Source: Branchiostoma floridae (Eukaryota; Chordata; Leptocardii; Amphioxiformes; Branchiostomatidae). From it: DNA of 64,000 bases. The stretch is taken from positions 12,813,436-12,877,435 of the forward strand of contig NC_049995.1 in NCBI RefSeq assembly GCF_000003815.2, read 5' to 3'. Every line of letters begins with the position of its first letter. Position 1 is the first letter of the stretch. Of the stretch, positions 23,811-34,300 are shown in pieces. The position numbers were made by a program, and so were the translations under genes. The notes beneath the pieces are model-generated. The model was not told the origin of the DNA. It ran no database searches and was given only the letters and a program-made list of their open reading frames with translations.

Positions 23811-24101
<291 letters not shown>

Positions 24102-24278: not shown

Positions 24279-24457
24279 TTAGCCTTGACGCTGCTCTTCC
24301 TGGGCCTGGCATCCATCAGACCGTTCGTCAGCACCCCCTAGCGGCAGGTACGGGGACGACACAGCTTCCAGATAATCGCCTGTCACATCGTCAGTGGCAG
24401 GTTTGAGAATCGGTTTAAAGATTTTAAACTTCTGTGCCTCCTCTGCATGTCCTTCTC
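24279..24457 (-). CDS. IL-1-like gene, exon 5 (stop codon)
   Basis: 179 nt after 'ttttccacacag'. It encodes the split Gly179, then EGHAEEAQKFKIFKPIL, then a polar tail ending EEQRQG and TAA. The QKFKIF strand would close the trefoil. Confidence 0.75.
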
Positions 24458-27147
24458 CTGTGTGGAAAATAGCACATCATATAATAATATGTATCTAATT
24501 CTGATTATTGTTCATTTCTTACGTTTCCCTTTTAGGAAGTCATCATCAAAATCTTCAATAAATTCTACCTTGATTTTACATGTAATGCATACGTTTTAAG
24601 TTAACCTTGTCTTGCTGAGTCCGTTTATATACGGGATGGACATATTTAATCCTTAGCTGTATTATTATGAGTTTGGAGTATTTTTCGTGTAAAAGTTGCA
24701 TACCACTGCAAAGCATCGAACGTGGGAGTAAATCTGCAACAGCAGCACAGAACAGGTCAAGTTTTACTTATCTGATGAAGCCATCAGCTCTGGTAGGTTA
24801 AATTGGCTAAAATATAGCCAGCAGGACAAGGGTTGAAGCTTGAAAAGAAATGTGAGGCAAGCTTATTCATTCTCCACTTACACACTTCCCATAATTAAGT
24901 GCGAGAGGGTTCCGGATATGGATGTTACTTGGATGCTACCACAGTTGCTCAGGGTGCGAAACTAGGGTGGAACCAGCTAAAACCTTCAGTACGAGGGCGG
25001 AAAAGCATATAAACTAATAAGTTGTCTGGCGAATATAGTACAGTTATCATTTGGGCCGAGAATCTTACAAGTTTTGTGGTCAGAAGTAACTACCTAACAC
25101 GTGCACCACTGTGGCTGTTAGTTGGTTTCTTCCGATGACCTCAAGGGCCACACCTTGGCGTTTCGTCTGCAGCCTTTGTTTTTTTCCTGTCGGAAAGTGA
25201 TTAAACCATTGTCCTGTGATCGGTTCCACACCAAACTATCATCTCCTTGATGTTTTCTGTGTTCGGAATTGGTTAGAACCAATTTTCTGTGCCCTTGGAG
25301 TCAGTTCCGGAGTTCGGAGCAGCCATATCCGGAACCCTCTCGCACTTAATTATGGGAAGTGTGTAAGTGGAGACATAAAAAGCCATACCTAGGTCTGCTA
25401 GAATAGCAGGCTTATTCCTGCGATCCTTAGCCAGTGTGATGACTCCAGTCACACCGCCCGAAGCCGCTCGGAAAATAAGATCCGACGAGAATGGCGGACT
25501 CCGCTTTGCCAGAAACACCCGCCGGTCGGCAGTTGTCGTGATGTCTTCGGCATATTCCGGATCCCAGCCGTTTTTCTGTCGGTATCGGTAGAAAAATTGA
25601 GTCAAGTCCGTTCCTAAATTTTCTATTTTTTTAAAATCCTATTCAGACTTTTTTTGGTCATCCCTGGACCGGGCTTTTTGAGGCCCGCCCCTTCTGATTG
25701 CTGTAACTCTTAAATGAGTTATTGTATGGTCACCAACTTTTAGAGAATGATGTAGATATAATAATATCTAAAGATTTTACTTAAGAAATCTGACGCTATT
25801 ATGACGTAATATGATGTACTTATGACGTAAGCAATTTGACTATATTGGCTGGAACCATGAAAAAAGGGTATTCCCAGAAACTTCAAGGTATCTACAAAAA
25901 TGTAACAGAAAGTGCAGAATTATGATGTTTGTTACGACTTGTGCTGCCAATAGCACAACCCTCCCTCATCTGAATAGGGTTAAATATCGATAGCTTCACA
26001 TTTTCTCCTATTTTCATAGCTTACCGTCAGAATAAGCTTGCTGGGTTTATTTTTGTGGACAGCGAAGAACTTCTGGGACTGCATGAACTGCAATACAACA
26101 TAGGTACCGTCTGCAGCTCCAGGGTTGCTGGGCATGCTGTATGAGTAGATTGTCACAATCGCTAAAAGGAACAAAATAAAAAACACAGTATGTTGTTTAA
26201 AATGTAGTGAACCACAGTATAGCTCATTGAACTTGTCATTGGAGTGTACCAAAAAATAAGAATCCCAGGCTCTGTCTGCAACCTCATTAACTGCACAGAC
26301 ATGCACATGCACATGCAAAGTTTCAACAGTTTACACTAACAATTAGGGCTGGGTATCGGTACAGCGTACCGGTACAAAACCGGTTTTTCTTATTGGACCG
26401 GTCCAGAAAAAACGGACCTGAAAAAATTAGGTGGACCGGATGTTGGACCGGTTAGAAAATTAACATATTATTTGATCAGGCATTCACACGTTTTTGGCGC
26501 TTGCAGGTGGAAGAAAATAACAAGAGTGAAGTAGAGTAGAGTTTATAGTCATTTCTACCAAGTTTTACAGTCAATCGTACAGGTGCAGTTAGTGTTGTAG
26601 GATTTTAAGACGCCAATGTAAGTCTTATACTCCACCAAACAGATTTCTTTGTAGTGAAATGGACCATTGGTATGAGTCATACTGAATCAGGTCCAGGTTC
26701 AGGTCCGGACCTGGACCTAATCCTTTGGACCTGGACCGGACCTGGACCTGAATTTTCTGTACCGGTACCCAGCCCTACTAACAATTATATATCATAATGT
26801 AGTATTGGGGGCCCTAAATTTCTTCGAGAGGAATTATAAACTTATAAACTTATATATCAATTTTACCTTCGTGCTTGTTTTGCTTATTCATGCGGTCGGT
26901 CCGGAAAACCTTGCCCCTTGGTCCATTTCGCCCTCGGGCCTCAATAAGGTACCCTGTGTACCCTTCAAACGGGTTCTTTATCAGATGGTCTTCTATATTG
27001 GAGCATTGAATCCTCTGTGAAATAGAAAATACGTCAAGTGTTACTAATAAACGATGCAAAGGAGCAGAAAACACCGTTCAGAGTAATGGCCCTCATTATA
27101 CACACACGTACACGGCCGTCATACACATACACAACACTTGCACGTAC

Positions 27148-27206
<59 letters not shown>

Positions 27207-27469
27207 ACACACACAAACACACACACACACACAAACACAAACAGAAGCAAACAAACAAATAAACAAACACAAAATCACTGACATCTACACAAACACACAT
27301 CGATTACCTTTTATCAACACAAACACACTCTTACGCACACAAACACACACACAAAATAAATAAATGATCAGACAAATCAGCGGCCATGTCAGAACTGCAA
27401 ACTTACTTGTGGCGTCGTTTCCTCGCTCCCTCCCTCCGTACTGATGTTGTGAGAAAGTTTGTTTCCCAT
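24279..27469 (-). CDS. IL-1 family-like beta-trefoil protein, complete five-exon gene
   Basis: Exons on the minus strand are 27469-27407, 27014-26867, 26161-26025, 25575-25389 and 24457-24279. Codon phases at the four junctions are 0, 1, 0 and 1, all compatible, giving 237 residues. Every intron is GT-AG. Residue pattern along the chain: RIQCSN..DHLIKN....GYL (22-44), then YVVLQF.QSQKFFAV.....KLILT (91-116), then RVFLAKRS, DLIFRAASGG and VITLAKD....PAIL (136-176), then QKFKIF (188-193). This follows the order of beta strands in IL-1Ra, IL-36 and IL-18, including the F-x-[SA]-[AV]...G segment and a P-x-x-L segment. Introns after KHEA and after LILT fall where introns interrupt the trefoil of vertebrate IL-1 genes, as I recall them; the intron after ADLG is extra. 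No signal peptide. MGNKLS at the start fits N-myristoylation. A 45-residue polar tail follows the domain. FGF or another trefoil is the main alternative. Confidence 0.72.
24871..25373. mobile_element. Foldback element with ~51-bp terminal inverted repeats in IL-1-like intron 4
   Basis: TCTCCACTTACACACTTCCC through 'gagggttccggatatgg' on the left is repeated almost exactly inverted at 25323-25373. The interior of about 400 bp shows no transposase. It occupies half of the intron and ends ten bases from the exon 4 donor. Confidence 0.85.
25389..25575 (-). CDS. IL-1-like gene, exon 4
   Basis: 187 nt between 'taccgacag' and cctag|gtatgg, residues 117-178, phase 0 in and 1 out. GC-rich against its introns. 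It contains the F-R-A-A-S-G-G segment aligned with the IL-1 family signature region. A foldback element ends ten bases beyond its donor. Confidence 0.8.
26025..26161 (-). CDS. IL-1-like gene, exon 3
   Basis: 137 nt between 'gttccttttag' and ctgacg|gtaagc. It encodes the split codon for Ala71 and residues 72-116 (IVTIYSYS...SKLILT). It ends in phase 0 after the central strand pair. Confidence 0.8.
26344..26777. mobile_element. MITE-like element, TAGGGCTGGGTATCGG ends, in IL-1-like intron 2
   Basis: The ends TAGGGCTGGGTATCGGTAC and GTACCGGTACCCAGCCCTA are inverted. Inside are 'ttggaccggtcc', 'aaaaacggacctg' and 'ggtccaggttcaggtccgg' runs. Fragments of the same family occur at 2480-3380, 21775-21860 and 52355-52415. 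Confidence 0.75.
26867..27014 (-). CDS. IL-1-like gene, exon 2
   Basis: 148 nt between 'ctatttcacag' and gaag|gtaaaa. It encodes residues 22-70 (RIQCSNIEDH...NKQNKHE) and leaves phase 1. It has the first predicted strands of the trefoil. Confidence 0.75.
27150..27232. repeat. (CA)n microsatellite in IL-1-like intron 1
   Basis: An almost uninterrupted CA run of about 80 bp, with further CA-rich sequence to 27350. The minus-strand VCVCVC frames come from it. Confidence 0.95.
27407..27469 (-). CDS. IL-1-like gene, exon 1 (start codon)
   Basis: 21 codons, MGNKLSHNISTEGGSEETTP plus Q, with a donor caa|gtaagt in phase 0. The start context is gtcATGG with a purine at -3. Gly2 and Ser6 fit the N-myristoyltransferase consensus. 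This is the least certain exon because it is short, but its phase fits the next one exactly. Confidence 0.65.
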
Positions 27470-27479
27470 GACACAACTC

Positions 27480-29600
27480 TGTACTACACGTTCTTCCTCA
27501 GTGTAAAATTAGACAATATTAAAGACTTCACCGAAAAGTGAGATCAAGACGTTACATCCTTTTCATCCGACGAGTGAAATGTCTGAATGCCTGTACTGTA
27601 CCAGTACTTCCAGTGGCTAGGTAGCCTCCATAGCAGGCTCTCGGAGGCCATTTTCCCGTCTTTTTTGGCTCATAATACACTTTTTGTACTGGGTCGTTCG
27701 ATCATTGGCCGCCAAGTTGTCCGTACCCCCAGTAGTGTCCCATTATCCCAGTAGTGTCCGTGCTCCAAGTAGTGTCTTCTAAGTTCTATGGGTCCAATGG
27801 TCAAGCGACCCAGTGCAAAAAGAAATGGCCAGCAAAAAGTGTATGATGAGCCAAAAAAATACGAAAAAGGGACACAAAGAGTCTGATATGGAGGCTACAC
27901 CTGTGCATAGACCTTGTCCTCAACTGTCTACCTGATCGTACCATGAATACTGCTATTGTTCCACATAAACCGCCTTTAGGTGTGACACACCAGTGACCAA
28001 CAAATCCGACTATCATTCCGTTCACGCCGTTCTGAGTCTTTTGATACTGCTATGGCAAAACTCTTAAAGACAAGTGCCTGACCGAATAGTAATAGGGGAC
28101 TCTTGCCAAATTAGGAATAAAAGCTTACTTAGTATGAGTTGATTGGCCTAAGAGTGAACTGACCAGTCAGCCGGTACGTAGACTGCAAAGCTGACTGAGA
28201 TTCCATGGCAACTTATTTGACCCTATTTGGTCAAATTATTGTATTTTTTTCATCCAGCTGTACACGTTTGCCTGGAGACTACTTTGGTTTGGAACGAGTG
28301 CTCCACTGAGTCTGCCGCAATGGCAAAGTGCAAATTAAATACAGTTATTGATGATGAGTTAATATCTGCCACAAATCAAGTAAAATGAACAAATAATTTG
28401 AATTGAAGATAAAGTCTGGTTTAGAGTTATAAGACTGCGTATGAGCAAGTTGTCAACCTATATGGGCAATGTATTATTTTTGAGTGACAAAGGCATTTAA
28501 AAAATAGTTTGTTAACCACACTTATATCAGCTTAATCATATATTCCAAACCGTTACATTAACGCAAAAGGTACAACATGTGTTTCATGCACATGACATGT
28601 TTCTAAGTGAATCCTACCAAAGTTTTTGCTGTGTCAATTATACAAATAATACTAATAATAATAATAATATAACTGATTTTACGATGAGCATAATCAGAGT
28701 CTAATTCACCGGAAAGCTTAAATGTAAAGTAGAACACATCCTCACTACATGCTACCTAAAGCAAAACTGGTGAATCAAGCTTCCTCAGCCTCTGTCGTGA
28801 CTTTGAATTCGGCACATACGCCCGGTTGATACCTGCGTATATATTCAAGTCCGTATGAGGTCCGTATGGTCTGCGTATGGAGTTCTTAGCCACTACCAGG
28901 CTCCAACAGGTCGCTGAAAAAAAAAGAAATTGTACAAATACAGCCTGGATAACAGGCCAGTGGAGTTAGTTGGTTGCAAACCATACTCCTCTGACAGCTA
29001 ACTTCATGGACATGTTATCTGTCTATATTTTGCCAACCTCTACTATTTTTCCAGCGACCTGTGGAGCCTGGTAGACGGCTAAGGATTACCTACGGACCTC
29101 ATACGGGCCTGAATCTATGTACCCACATGTGAACCCACCTTTAATTGGTTCTGGTTCTTCTCTAGCCTCTGTCGTGAGTCGTGAATCTAGATCTTTGAAT
29201 TTGGCATACACGCCCAAGGTGGTATCTCACTGCATTTGAGGTACTGGTGTGGCACTGGCGGGGTTCGTTCACTGCGGCACTGTTGTGTTATTTTCGCCGA
29301 TTTTTTCTTTATAATTCAGATATTACTTAATACTTAAAAGTATGACTTAGAAGACAACAAAATGCACAAAACGTAAGAAAAATGGTTCTGTATCTCTGAA
29401 ATTCGTTTAGTAATCTTTCGAACCCCACAGTGCCGCGCCGGTGCCCCAGGTGTAGTGTGAGTAACCTTTACGCAGAAAACACCCCCCGAACCTTATGTTA
29501 GTCATACGCGCCGGAATAGTTCCAAGGTGACGTGATGGGGGAAGTTTACGCATCTATGACGTAATCCAGGTAAACAGAGCGGAAGTACTAAACATTTCAC
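27480..29600. other. Intergenic DNA between the divergent IL-1-like and EXT1 genes
   Basis: Non-coding as far as I can see. It includes the foldback at 28894-29073 (taccaggctcc / gagcctggta ends), itself inside a wider inverted arrangement ('tccgtatgaggtccgtatgg' against 'acctacggacctcatacgg') and direct repeats of 'gcctctgtcgtga' at 28790 and 29166. 'gtgtcc.agtagtgtcc' repeats occur at 27733-27777. Confidence 0.5.
28894..29073. mobile_element. Foldback element related to 22358-22770
   Basis: The ends 'taccaggctccaacaggtcg' and 'cgacctgtggagcctggta' are inverted, and the inner words 'ccagtggagttag' / 'ctaacttcatgg' also pair. About 180 bp. No target duplication was recognised. Confidence 0.7.
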
Positions 29601-30363: not shown

Positions 30364-31358
30364 ATGCACGCCAAGAAACGATACGCTCTTGTGCTCTTCT
30401 CGGGCCTGTTATTGTTGTTGTTTTACTACGGAGGAGTGCGCTTACTGGCTGCGACATCGGCCGCGGCGCACCACTCGAGGGGCGCCTGGGCCCCTGCTCC
30501 GCATGGAGGGGGTCGCAGGCCGGACAAGTTGGGAGCTGCTCGCTCCTACCTGCGGACTTTCGCCGACTCGGACGATCAGGAGGCGGCTGATCTGCACGCC
30601 GAGTCGCCCAAGCGGCGGCGCATGGCCCGCTCGGCTCTGTACCGCAACGCCAAGTGCCGTATGGATACCTGTTGGGACTTCTCTCGGTGCCCGCCGCACA
30701 AACCCTTCCGAGTTTACATCCATCCCAACGCCGAGCACACAGATACCACCTTGGGGCCCGGGCCTCAGTCTGCCGCATACACCAAGATCTTAGAAGCTCT
30801 CAGACGCTCGGGCTACCTCGCAGAGCGTCCTGAAGACGCATGTGTTCTTGTCCTAGCCGTGGACACCTTGGATAGAGACCGTCTTAGCCCCGACTATGTC
30901 TCGGGCGCTGCGCAACGCATCCAGGCTTTGCCTCTATGGAGCGGCGACGGCACTAACCACCTCGTCTTCAACATCTACTCGGGCACGTGGCCCGACTATG
31001 CCGAGGAGCTCGGCTTCGACACCGGGAGAGCTGTTTTAGCGAAAGCTTCCTTCAGCATGGACAAGTTTCGCCCCGGCTTCGATATCTCAATCCCGCTGTT
31101 TGCGAAGGATCACCCACAGCGCGGCGGGAGGCCTGGCGATCTCACCGCCAACACCTTCCCCGCCGCCACGGCCAACAAGTACCTGCTCGTCTTCAAGGGG
31201 AAGCGGTACCTGACGGGGATCGGGTCCGAGACCAGGAACGCGCTGTATCACCTGCACAACGGCGACGATATCATCCTCACCACCACATGTAAGCACGGCA
31301 AGAGCTGGAAGTCTCACGACGACGGCAGATGTCAGCAGGACCAGCAAGAATTCGACAA
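30364..31358 (+). CDS. EXT1: Exostosin-1, first coding exon (5' part of gene)
   Basis: EXT1 with EXT2 forms the Golgi/ER heparan sulfate co-polymerase that adds alternating GlcA and GlcNAc. The 331 complete codons begin MHAKKRY, close to the vertebrate EXT1 start. Next comes a signal-anchor helix at about residues 7-28 (type II topology), a basic low-complexity stem (35-95) and the start of the exostosin domain: KCRMDTCWDFSRC (98-109), FRVYIHP (115-121), AVDTLDRDRLSPDYV (165-179), HLVFNIYSGTWPDYAEELGFD (199-219), RPGFDISIPLF (236-246) and LLVFKGKRYLTGIGS (274-288). It ends GAA TTC GAC AA|gtgagt, inside a codon after two bases, the same phase as vertebrate exon 1 as I recall it. I chose the ATG at 30364 by homology although the frame is open from 30232. 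The later exons, including the GT64 domain, are outside the window. Confidence 0.95.
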
Positions 31359-34300
31359 GTGAGTTCCCCTTTTTGTCTTTCAACACTTCTTAATACCCCT
31401 CTACAAAACAGAATGGGAAGAAAATAGCAACTAAAACAATGAGGGATTCCACAAATATTGAATTTCCCTTTGTTTTCATGCATAACCGTTTTATTATCAT
31501 TTTATTGCAGTTTAGAAATAAACAATGGGAAAAAGACAACAAGAGTAAACCCAAGATCTAAGTATTATGGGAAGTTAGTGGTAAGAAAATACTACAATAA
31601 AAAGAAACAACAACAATATAGTTTGGAAACTCGAAAAAATAGGAACATTTCGATATCTAAAGAAAGTTGGGAGAAAATAAACCTTGATAAAATGGACAGG
31701 TAGGAATAGAAGGAAAAATTCCGCCTAAAAAAACAATCGTTCACCCAACTTCCATTTAGAGAAGCACCACATGTTTGTTTAGTCTTTCCTTAAGTACTGT
31801 GAAAAGGAGGGTTGGATTCCTTAAAGATGTTAGAAATTCCTTACATCTCCAAGACGTTGTAAGTGTGTCCACTTTAGAGTGACCCTAGCTGTCCCCCTAA
31901 GGTCCAGGTGTCCGCACATGTCGCCGGGCTGACCACAGCAAATATAAACCTTTCTACGGTAAATTCCATTCATTGTGTAGTCTGGGTTCAGTTCACCCCT
32001 CGCCCCCCTCCCCAACCTATGTGTTACTAGTTTATCAGAACAACACAGAAATGTGCCTGGATATCTATATATATGCTTAGTTAGGACTTTGCTCATGACA
32101 TAAGATTTCTAGGTTTGACAAATTTTAAAAACTATAGTTTTAGGCTTTTAGCATTGGAAACATCTTGAAGTTTAAGTAACTGAGTGAAGTTAACCAGCAA
32201 CTTTTAGAACAACATTAGTCAACTTTTCATACCTTTCTTTTACAAACAACACAACTGCGCTATTAAAGGTCACTTAATTTCAGGTGGTAACTACAAATAC
32301 AAACTGATAAACAACAACTAAAGAAACGTCTTTCCTACACAATTGTACCTTGTTGCGTCATATGTTTATTTTCTTAATATTCTTATGCAGTGCCATATGA
32401 TGTACTCAACCTGCTACTGGCAAAGAAATTGCCTAAAAATCATATTAGAAAATCCTCCAAATCTTGCATCCTGAGCCTTTAAAGTCTGCAAAGTGACCAA
32501 ATATGACGTCCTATTTAGAAGAGCCACTTTGAAATCCAATTGGCATGTACGTGCCAGACAAGGGTATAATGAGCCTAAATACCATCCGGCCATTTAGGAA
32601 TCATTAGTTACTGCTTAGTTGTTTGATTTCCACTTATTTGCTATTTGTGCTGCGGTATAAATGAACTGAAGTCACTTTTGGATGAAAAGAAAAGTTCTTA
32701 GAGAATCTGAAGGTATTTCGCAAGAGAAAAATGCAAAAAATCGTTACTTTGGAATGCAGAATGTTTGAATATTTATGTTTTCAACACCTGCCACCTAAGT
32801 GTAGAAATAGTGATCGGATTTGGACAGACTTAGCACCTAATAGTTTATATTGTAAACAGGGCTTTCTTCAGCTTGAAATTTTTTTACCGTCCCACTCATT
32901 GTTTGGTAGCTTATTTTGACATTTTCACCAACTTCATGTCAGTATGTTCAGTTTATTGAACAGACTGGGTGAAATTTTTGTTGTTCCGTGAAGCAAATCT
33001 CTGTCTCAGGACAGACAGACGGGTCCTGGAGACATCTCCGATCATAAACATAAGTATCTGTGAGTGCGAAGGACAGGAATAAAATGTTTTGCTACACTGT
33101 GTGAATTGTTGACACGAATAAGAAACCGGCTTTAGATCAGTTTGAATGATTGAATCACACGCTAGACTGAAGACGCGAATGTCCTGCTAGTTTCTGTCAC
33201 ATTGCCTTGACCCGTTGGTGTCTACATGTGAATTTGTTTTAGCCAGAAGGCAGATATTCGGACATGTCTGACTGCAGACACTGTCGGCAAAGATGACACG
33301 GGGACAGAAAATAGACGCTGGGACGCAACAGAGCTAAATATAACCTCCTGTGCCATTAATAGTAACTTCTCCTAGCAATGTAAATGGACTCTGTCCTGTG
33401 GACGTTATGGTTGGTAACAGTAGCCGATTGATTGGGTGCAATTTTAATGACTGTTTACATTAATGTGTACCATCTAAATGTAGATGTTAAACATCTGTAG
33501 CAATTTCTTGGTGCTTTCCTTCAAAAGACTTCATTACAAATTAATTTGCAGCTAGATTTCAGCTAGAAATAGTGATAAATTCCGGTTTTGGAAGCCTAAA
33601 ATATTTGTTATGGAACACGATTTAGGCAAGTAACAGTCTTGGTTTCCAGTTACGTATGAAGTTTTATGATTCACAATCATGGCTGTTCTTTTCCACATTG
33701 ACATATTTCATTGATTCAAATTATTTCAAAGCAGATTCTAGACTTTAATTATGTAAGCTTTATAGAAAGTTTAGTAACTAAGCATTGGAAAGTAGCTCAA
33801 ATATTTGCAGAAAACCTTTATAGAATACAGATAATTTTGTGACACTTAAGCAGGTAACAGAAAAAAAATACTTTGAACCCGAAATAGGAATTGTTAAAAG
33901 GTAGGACACAAATACTATAAATAGTATAATGAAGTCGTCCATAGCTCTACTGACAGGCATTGCATTACAGTGAGTTGACAGATAATCAATATGCAAGGCA
34001 TATCACGAGTGGAGAGTTTGTCGTGCATAAGGACAGGTCGCAGTGGCCGGTAGGGCGTACAGATGACATGGCTCGAAATACCACCTGCATATGCAGGTTT
34101 AACTTAATAGTGCAGTTAAAAGTTTGGCTTTGCAGGTATTTCTGATGTCTACATGTACCTGGTTATGCACTGTGTATTATTTTTCTTTGCTGTACTGGTT
34201 GTAACTTTTTATTTATTTTCTATGTAGTTTTCCTTTACCTACTTTGTTAGTAAACATGTGTATAATAAAAGTATATTCAAAGGTTGTTTTATCCTCTTTG

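Follow-up and report, generated by a model that had tools for sequence, protein, structure and literature searches.

Whether ligands of the interleukin-1 (IL-1) type existed before vertebrates is the question raised by a gene on the minus strand (27469-24279) of a 64,000-nt stretch of the genome of the lancelet Branchiostoma floridae (contig NC_049995.1, positions 12,813,436 to 12,877,435; hereafter the window). The gene has five exons and a spliced product of 237 residues, and it belongs to a family of lancelet paralogs, one of which, on contig C7, carries the IL-1 hallmark. Judged from sequence, the window gene most likely belongs, as a divergent and leaderless member, to an IL-1 superfamily that predates vertebrates, and its kinship with IL-1, drawn through its own family and the C7 gene, is very probable. 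The overall reading, that such a member signals as an alarmin, is given a probability of about 0.55. This age of the superfamily runs counter to statements in print up to 2025, as papers of 2022–2025 contain statements that IL-1 ligands arose in early vertebrates or are absent from invertebrates (PMC9020223, PMC9382457, PMC11508797, PMC12108812). IL-1-like activities of invertebrates are described as reported without a characterised molecule (PMC9020223), and the titles and abstract openings found by literature queries, the broader of which covered only the top-ranked part, report no lancelet ligand of the IL-1 type. A family of this kind in a lancelet, with the hallmark of IL-1, its exon layout and perhaps a PDZ partner, would push the origin of the ligand back beyond the vertebrates, make receptors that lack ligands less puzzling, and open the original function of IL-1 to study in an animal lacking adaptive immunity. 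The finding is notable because the host is a lancelet; it would be ordinary in a jawed vertebrate.

That the gene is real and intact is confirmed by GT-AG borders at all four introns (phases 0, 1, 0 and 1) and by paralogs with equal splice phases. The model is beyond chance because paralogous exons occur elsewhere in the genome, with splice sites at the expected place and phase. An earlier note on this DNA had deduced five minus-strand exons with consensus splice sites, four matching phases and 237 residues, and its start, end, exon count and length were all correct. Exon 1 (27407..27469; MGNKLSHNISTEGGSEETTPQ) has an N-myristoylation-like start and a phase-0 donor, and a search of the retrieved loci found its counterpart in paralog N of contig C19, with an equal donor phase (MGSKLSHG...TPQ, compared to MGNKLSHN...TPQ in the window gene). 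Exon 2 (26867..27014; RIQCSNIEDHLIKNPF...NKHE; phase 0 to phase 1), also matched by a paralog exon 2, is expected to supply the early beta strands, and exon 3 (26025..26161; 137 nt; phase 1 to phase 0; YVVLQF...QKFFAV...KLILT) is the equivalent of the penultimate coding exon of IL-1beta. Exon 4 (25389..25575; 187 nt; phase 0 to phase 1; RRVFLAKR...SDLIFRAAS...VITLAKD...PAIL) aligns with the C7 paralog's exon in which FES occurs. Intron 4 (24458..25388; phase 1) is absent from that paralog, whose last exon runs to the stop codon. Exon 5 (24279..24457) ends at the stop codon and encodes EEAQKFKIF, which is expected to be the last strand, and a C-terminal tail; it is matched by exon 5 of paralog N and by the C7 end, ESQYFRLHSI.

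The family was traced by exon-by-exon tblastn of the lancelet's own genome (a 513 Mb assembly of 431 contigs), which gave 27 places at E<=1, five of them being the window gene itself on contig C17. Profile searches of retrieved DNA then yielded 14 gene models, many partial and on both strands, on C19 (16.635-17.042 Mb), and a single family exon on C352. More C19 exons lie beyond these models (e.g., 17000450, 17024878, 16963429 and 16929847), and the tandem array holds at least 14 paralogs. Damaged copies are found in at least two models (B has a stop in exon 2, C one in exon 4), and in model M exon 2 is split across two frames. The presence of damaged copies in the tandem array suggests evolution by birth and death, of the kind seen in immune genes. 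With the window gene included, exon 3 shows a consensus phase-1 acceptor in 14/14 cases and a phase-0 donor in 14/14, and exon 4 a phase-0 acceptor in 13/13 and a phase-1 donor in 12/13, counts that omit exon 4 of gene C, with its stop; exon ends were placed by eye at such sites, and the counts show that the sites exist but do not exclude every alternative. Among exon 3 pairs, 81 of 91 had more synonymous than nonsynonymous difference per site, as had 70 of 78 exon 4 pairs; the pairs share ancestry and are non-independent. When 13 family members were compared with Pfam, six families were matched by one member each (best E=0.0009), none of them IL-1.

The link from this family to vertebrate cytokines runs through C7, where paralog A, used as a query, had a weak match (3704631, E=0.54). 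The locus contains, in order, family exon 3 (E=6.9e-10 within a 3-kb locus) and family exon 4 (E=3.9e-4), and the IL-1-like gene (C7:3704632-3705641) lies on the same strand as PDZ exons upstream. Its exon 3 is 122 nt long (phase 1 to 0), and its last exon (207 nt up to the stop) encodes GGSPVDNITSNVTNDGRVFFMTAVGSDLKFESAKFPGKFLTINNSSSKLELKSNGSTIESQYFRLHSI-stop, which contains LKFESAKFPGKFL, the IL-1 hallmark (FESAKFPGKFL). With a human/mouse IL-1 profile, the C7 exon 4 peptide ranked first of 12,036 six-frame peptides (E=3.4e-5), and only 402nd with a provisional FGF profile and 1338th with the reversed IL-1 profile. Among 24,736 Pfam models, IL1 was the sole match of the 109-residue C7 product (E=0.016, 15.3 bits, in register; E=0.07 with the upstream exons added). 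In hhalign, C7 reached IL-1 at P=7.9e-5 with a score of 31.0, whereas 200 column shuffles never exceeded 20.0 and FGF against IL-1 scored 25.2; C7 reached the window family at P=4.1e-14 over 108 columns. The profiles relate the window family to C7, and C7 is in turn related to IL-1, so that C7 bridges the window family to vertebrate IL-1; as an IL-1 candidate it surpasses the window gene. Together, the family and C7 matched IL-1 at P=6.4e-4 and 6.9e-5, and FGF at 0.16. Comparison of the C7 product with the PDB by sequence, and with NCBIfam, gave nothing useful. A second weak place on C7 (1848712) was rejected, no family exon being seen there by eye.

Intron layout provides a separate comparison. 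For IL-1beta, coding introns of phases II, 0, I, I and 0 are described, the three final exons encoding the 12 strands (PMC4880838). The phases 1 and 0 around lancelet exon 3 are those of the last two of these introns (14/14 exon 3 acceptors and donors), and the penultimate coding exons are of similar length. Human IL1B exon lengths (47, 52, 202, 171, 131 and 207 nt) yield the phases II, 0, I, I and 0 and place the final pair of introns within codon 42 and directly behind codon 85 of mature IL-1beta, while in the profile alignment the lancelet introns of phase 1 and phase 0 correspond to position 40 and to the end of position 83, an offset of about two residues each. With that offset, the claim that introns fall after the first and second conserved blocks, as in vertebrate IL-1 genes, holds. 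The last exon of C7 equals the last exon of human IL1B in length (207 nt). Unlike IL-1beta, the window gene has a preceding intron of phase 0 rather than 1 and an extra phase-1 intron before the last strand, and its product has an MGxKLS start and a C-terminal tail and lacks the IL-1 signature.

Direct comparison of the window family with IL-1 gives a fainter picture. With hhalign, family profiles of 13 or 16 members aligned collinearly with 11 human/mouse IL-1 family domains along 98-108 columns, at P=0.014 in one comparison and at 0.035 and 0.0095 for the two directions of another; the score was reached by 2/300 column shuffles of the IL-1 profile and 0/300 of the family profile, the aligned length by none in either set, and reversed profiles scored 14.2 and 14.0 against 19.0 and 22.5 for the true ones. 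Over 11,729 six-frame peptides of the region, the IL-1 profile ranked three of the 14 exon 3 peptides 3rd, 4th and 6th. For all 14, the mean area under the receiver operating characteristic curve (AUC) was 0.946, a value reached by 0/70 column and 0/70 block shuffles (FGF, 0.791), and by mean rank 0/140 shuffled IL-1 profiles put these peptides as high as the true profile. Among the single members tried, IL-18 was best (P=0.023; exon 3 alone against IL-18, P=0.02), and IL-18 and IL-33 share a collinear profile alignment with the window family; the window protein has no single-sequence match to them, and the kinship claimed is with the superfamily and not orthology to any one vertebrate member. 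As yardsticks, accepted members were each compared with the remaining ones, giving P=0.029 for IL-33, 1.2e-5 for IL-18, 2.7e-7 for IL-1alpha and 4.5e-18 for IL-1beta. A true IL-1 member can thus be as faint as the window family, because IL-33 alone gives 0.029. The three blocks that the earlier note placed in the strand order of IL-1Ra, IL-36 and IL-18 do exist and are collinear, but their likeness to IL-1 is faint in the window family and becomes clear only via C7.

A number of results weigh against kinship with IL-1, or against its reach, and the first of them concerns the fold class that the window family would share with FGF. A convergent or very remote beta-trefoil, having the fold of IL-1, as FGF has, without special common descent, would also produce faint profile matches, and FGF itself reaches IL-1 at P=0.0021 (27 columns, score 25.2). 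The family's own P of 0.01-0.035 therefore cannot separate kinship from fold likeness; without C7 the window family reaches IL-1 no better than FGF does, and because this result weakens the family's own showing, kinship is put no higher than very probable. Against single cytokines the family was weaker than against the whole IL-1 profile, not only for IL-18 but for IL-33 (P=0.059), IL-1alpha (0.32) and IL-1beta (0.62, no match). Exon 4 gave P=0.23 alone against IL-1, and its peptides did not stand out, with an AUC of 0.70 that 2/70 column and 12/70 block shuffles matched. Searches with the window protein matched no Pfam model at E<=10 and, whether run by sequence or by profile, hit no IL-1 entry of the PDB. 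On the C7 side, the exon 3 peptide ranked only 6573rd with the IL-1 profile, the 15.3 bits for Pfam IL1 lie under the cut-off of 25, and a plain whole-genome search with C7 reached the array only at E>=0.047. The strict IL-1 signature used here ([FC]-x-S-[ASLV]-x2-P-x2-...) occurs in 0/16 family rows, 14 of which hold exon 4, and C7, with FESAKFPGKFL, lacks it also. Finally, a Pfam IL1 search of the lancelet's own genome was empty, its controls being silent too.

The weight of some of these points is limited. The strict signature is not family-defining, since just 4 of the 11 accepted human/mouse members have it and 7 of 11 are also without it, and the cut-off of Pfam PF00340 is a curated threshold and no biological feature, and was not treated as defining. 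A search of the genome with Pfam Ig_6 was likewise empty with silent controls, and one with the Pfam GFP family was empty despite the GFP genes present; having missed existing genes, the genome-wide Pfam route must be insensitive on intron-rich genes. Against convergence stand the C7 hallmark and the C7 scores, which exceed those of FGF against IL-1, along with the intron phases and positions shared with IL-1beta. In addition, FGF is not the better match of the family, which was near noise against it (P=0.45 with two FGF sequences; 0.16, and 0.35 in the other direction), and C7 alone gave P=0.044 over 14 columns. Of the two readings offered in the earlier note, an IL-1-type ligand predating vertebrates or a convergent trefoil, the IL-1-type relationship is favoured by the C7 peptide rank, the match of C7 to the family and the intron phases, and convergence appears quite improbable.

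A more radical alternative is that the fold is unrelated, the family being lineage-specific to lancelets and its resemblance to IL-1 due to chance. AlphaFold models of exon fragments bear on this in both directions. Exon 4 folded poorly (predicted local distance difference test, pLDDT, 53.8), and a Foldseek search with the exon 3 model found nothing at E<=0.001, nor any IL-1 structure among the best 50 of 128, results which also tell against kinship. On the other hand, the exon 3 fragment was predicted as three beta strands (pLDDT 79), and the true profiles outdo shuffled and reversed ones. Chance resemblance is, on balance, very hard to credit.

How such a protein might act is suggested by its N-terminus. 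In a hydropathy scan, residues 1 to 60 contained no hydrophobic segment (the mean over 19 residues peaked at -0.34). Most members of the IL-1 family have no classical signal peptide, IL-1beta among them, and vertebrate precursors are leaderless. The start common to the window gene and paralog N, MG(N/S)KLSH, looks like an N-myristoylation signal and fits the motif. In the model preferred here, the lancelet family shares ancestry with the vertebrate IL-1/IL-18/IL-33 cytokines, and the protein, presumably folded as a beta-trefoil, would be made in the cytosol without a signal peptide, like IL-1 precursors, because it has no hydrophobic leader. Glycine 2 would probably be myristoylated and the protein held at membranes, or else kept in the cytosol, until cell damage, lytic death or proteolysis freed or exposed it; the freed protein might then signal to neighbouring cells as an alarmin, via Ig-TIR (IL-1R-like) receptors. 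Its fold, modification, release and receptor are all points that we infer. The genome has 85 matches to the TIR family.

The same features could also describe an IL-1 homologue that is no ligand, namely an intracellular, membrane-tethered beta-trefoil adaptor or scaffold whose extracellular role came later, in vertebrates. The myristoylation-like start of the window gene and one paralog, the lack of a hydrophobic leader, and the PDZ exons beside the C7 paralog would all suit such a protein. Leaderless precursors are, however, also the rule for the vertebrate IL-1 family, a birth-and-death array suits immune ligands, and the TIR matches amount to a rich TIR gene set, even if Ig-TIR receptors as such were not identified in it. 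This alternative is rather unlikely but to be taken seriously, and the odds lean slightly towards the window product being a ligand.

The PDZ exons invite comparison with nIL-1F of fish (lumpfish), which is described as joining PDZ and IL-1 domains and is called a likely ancestral gene (PMC7144542). On C7, two exons of one PDZ domain (Pfam E=2.4e-10 when joined) lie near 3699.9 and 3702.8 kb, upstream of the IL-1-like last exons and on the same strand, an arrangement like that of the fish gene. In contrast to the latter, the window gene has no PDZ in its own exons, and for C7 we infer that the PDZ and IL-1 exons form one gene, read as one transcript. An exon lying between them is tentative: the exon 2 candidate has suitable phases and, when included, lifts the family alignment above 99/100 shuffles, but alone it is at noise (36/100 shuffles reach it). 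It is conceivable, if doubtful, that a PDZ-IL-1 gene resembling nIL-1F of fish was present in the ancestor of chordates and was kept on C7, and that the lancelet tandem family, the window gene included, was derived from it, dropped the PDZ and gained an N-myristoylated start, giving a membrane-tethered IL-1, a cytokine that stays at the membrane until damage exposes or sheds it.

Several other features lie in or near the window gene. Intron 4 contains an inverted repeat (24861-24924 / 25320-25383; 64-nt arms, 92% complementary) that resembles a small hairpin element, and a second (27621-27686 / 27833-27898; 66-nt arms, 80% complementary) lies just upstream of exon 1. A stretch in intron 2 (26340-26780) with the ends GGGCTGGGTACCGGTAC / GTACCGATACCCAGCCC appears, by eye, to be like a miniature inverted-repeat transposable element. 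Intron 1 carries a long GT/CA run (27113-27361), and TC and then TA runs lie directly downstream of the gene (23842-24050). Divergent from the IL-1-like gene, on the plus strand at about 30364-31359, is the first coding exon of an exostosin gene (Pfam Exostosin_GT47, E=1.3e-24), presumably EXT1-like, which sits in the sole 2-kb step with a GC content above 0.46 (0.508 at 30-32 kb). The genome was described in the earlier note as of invertebrate type, and it is that of a lancelet, with lancelet-type GFP genes: a lancelet-derived fluorescent protein query gave 68 genome matches with identities of up to 88%, most of them clustered on C4 (about 24.57-24.65 Mb) and C17 (about 14.83-14.93 Mb).

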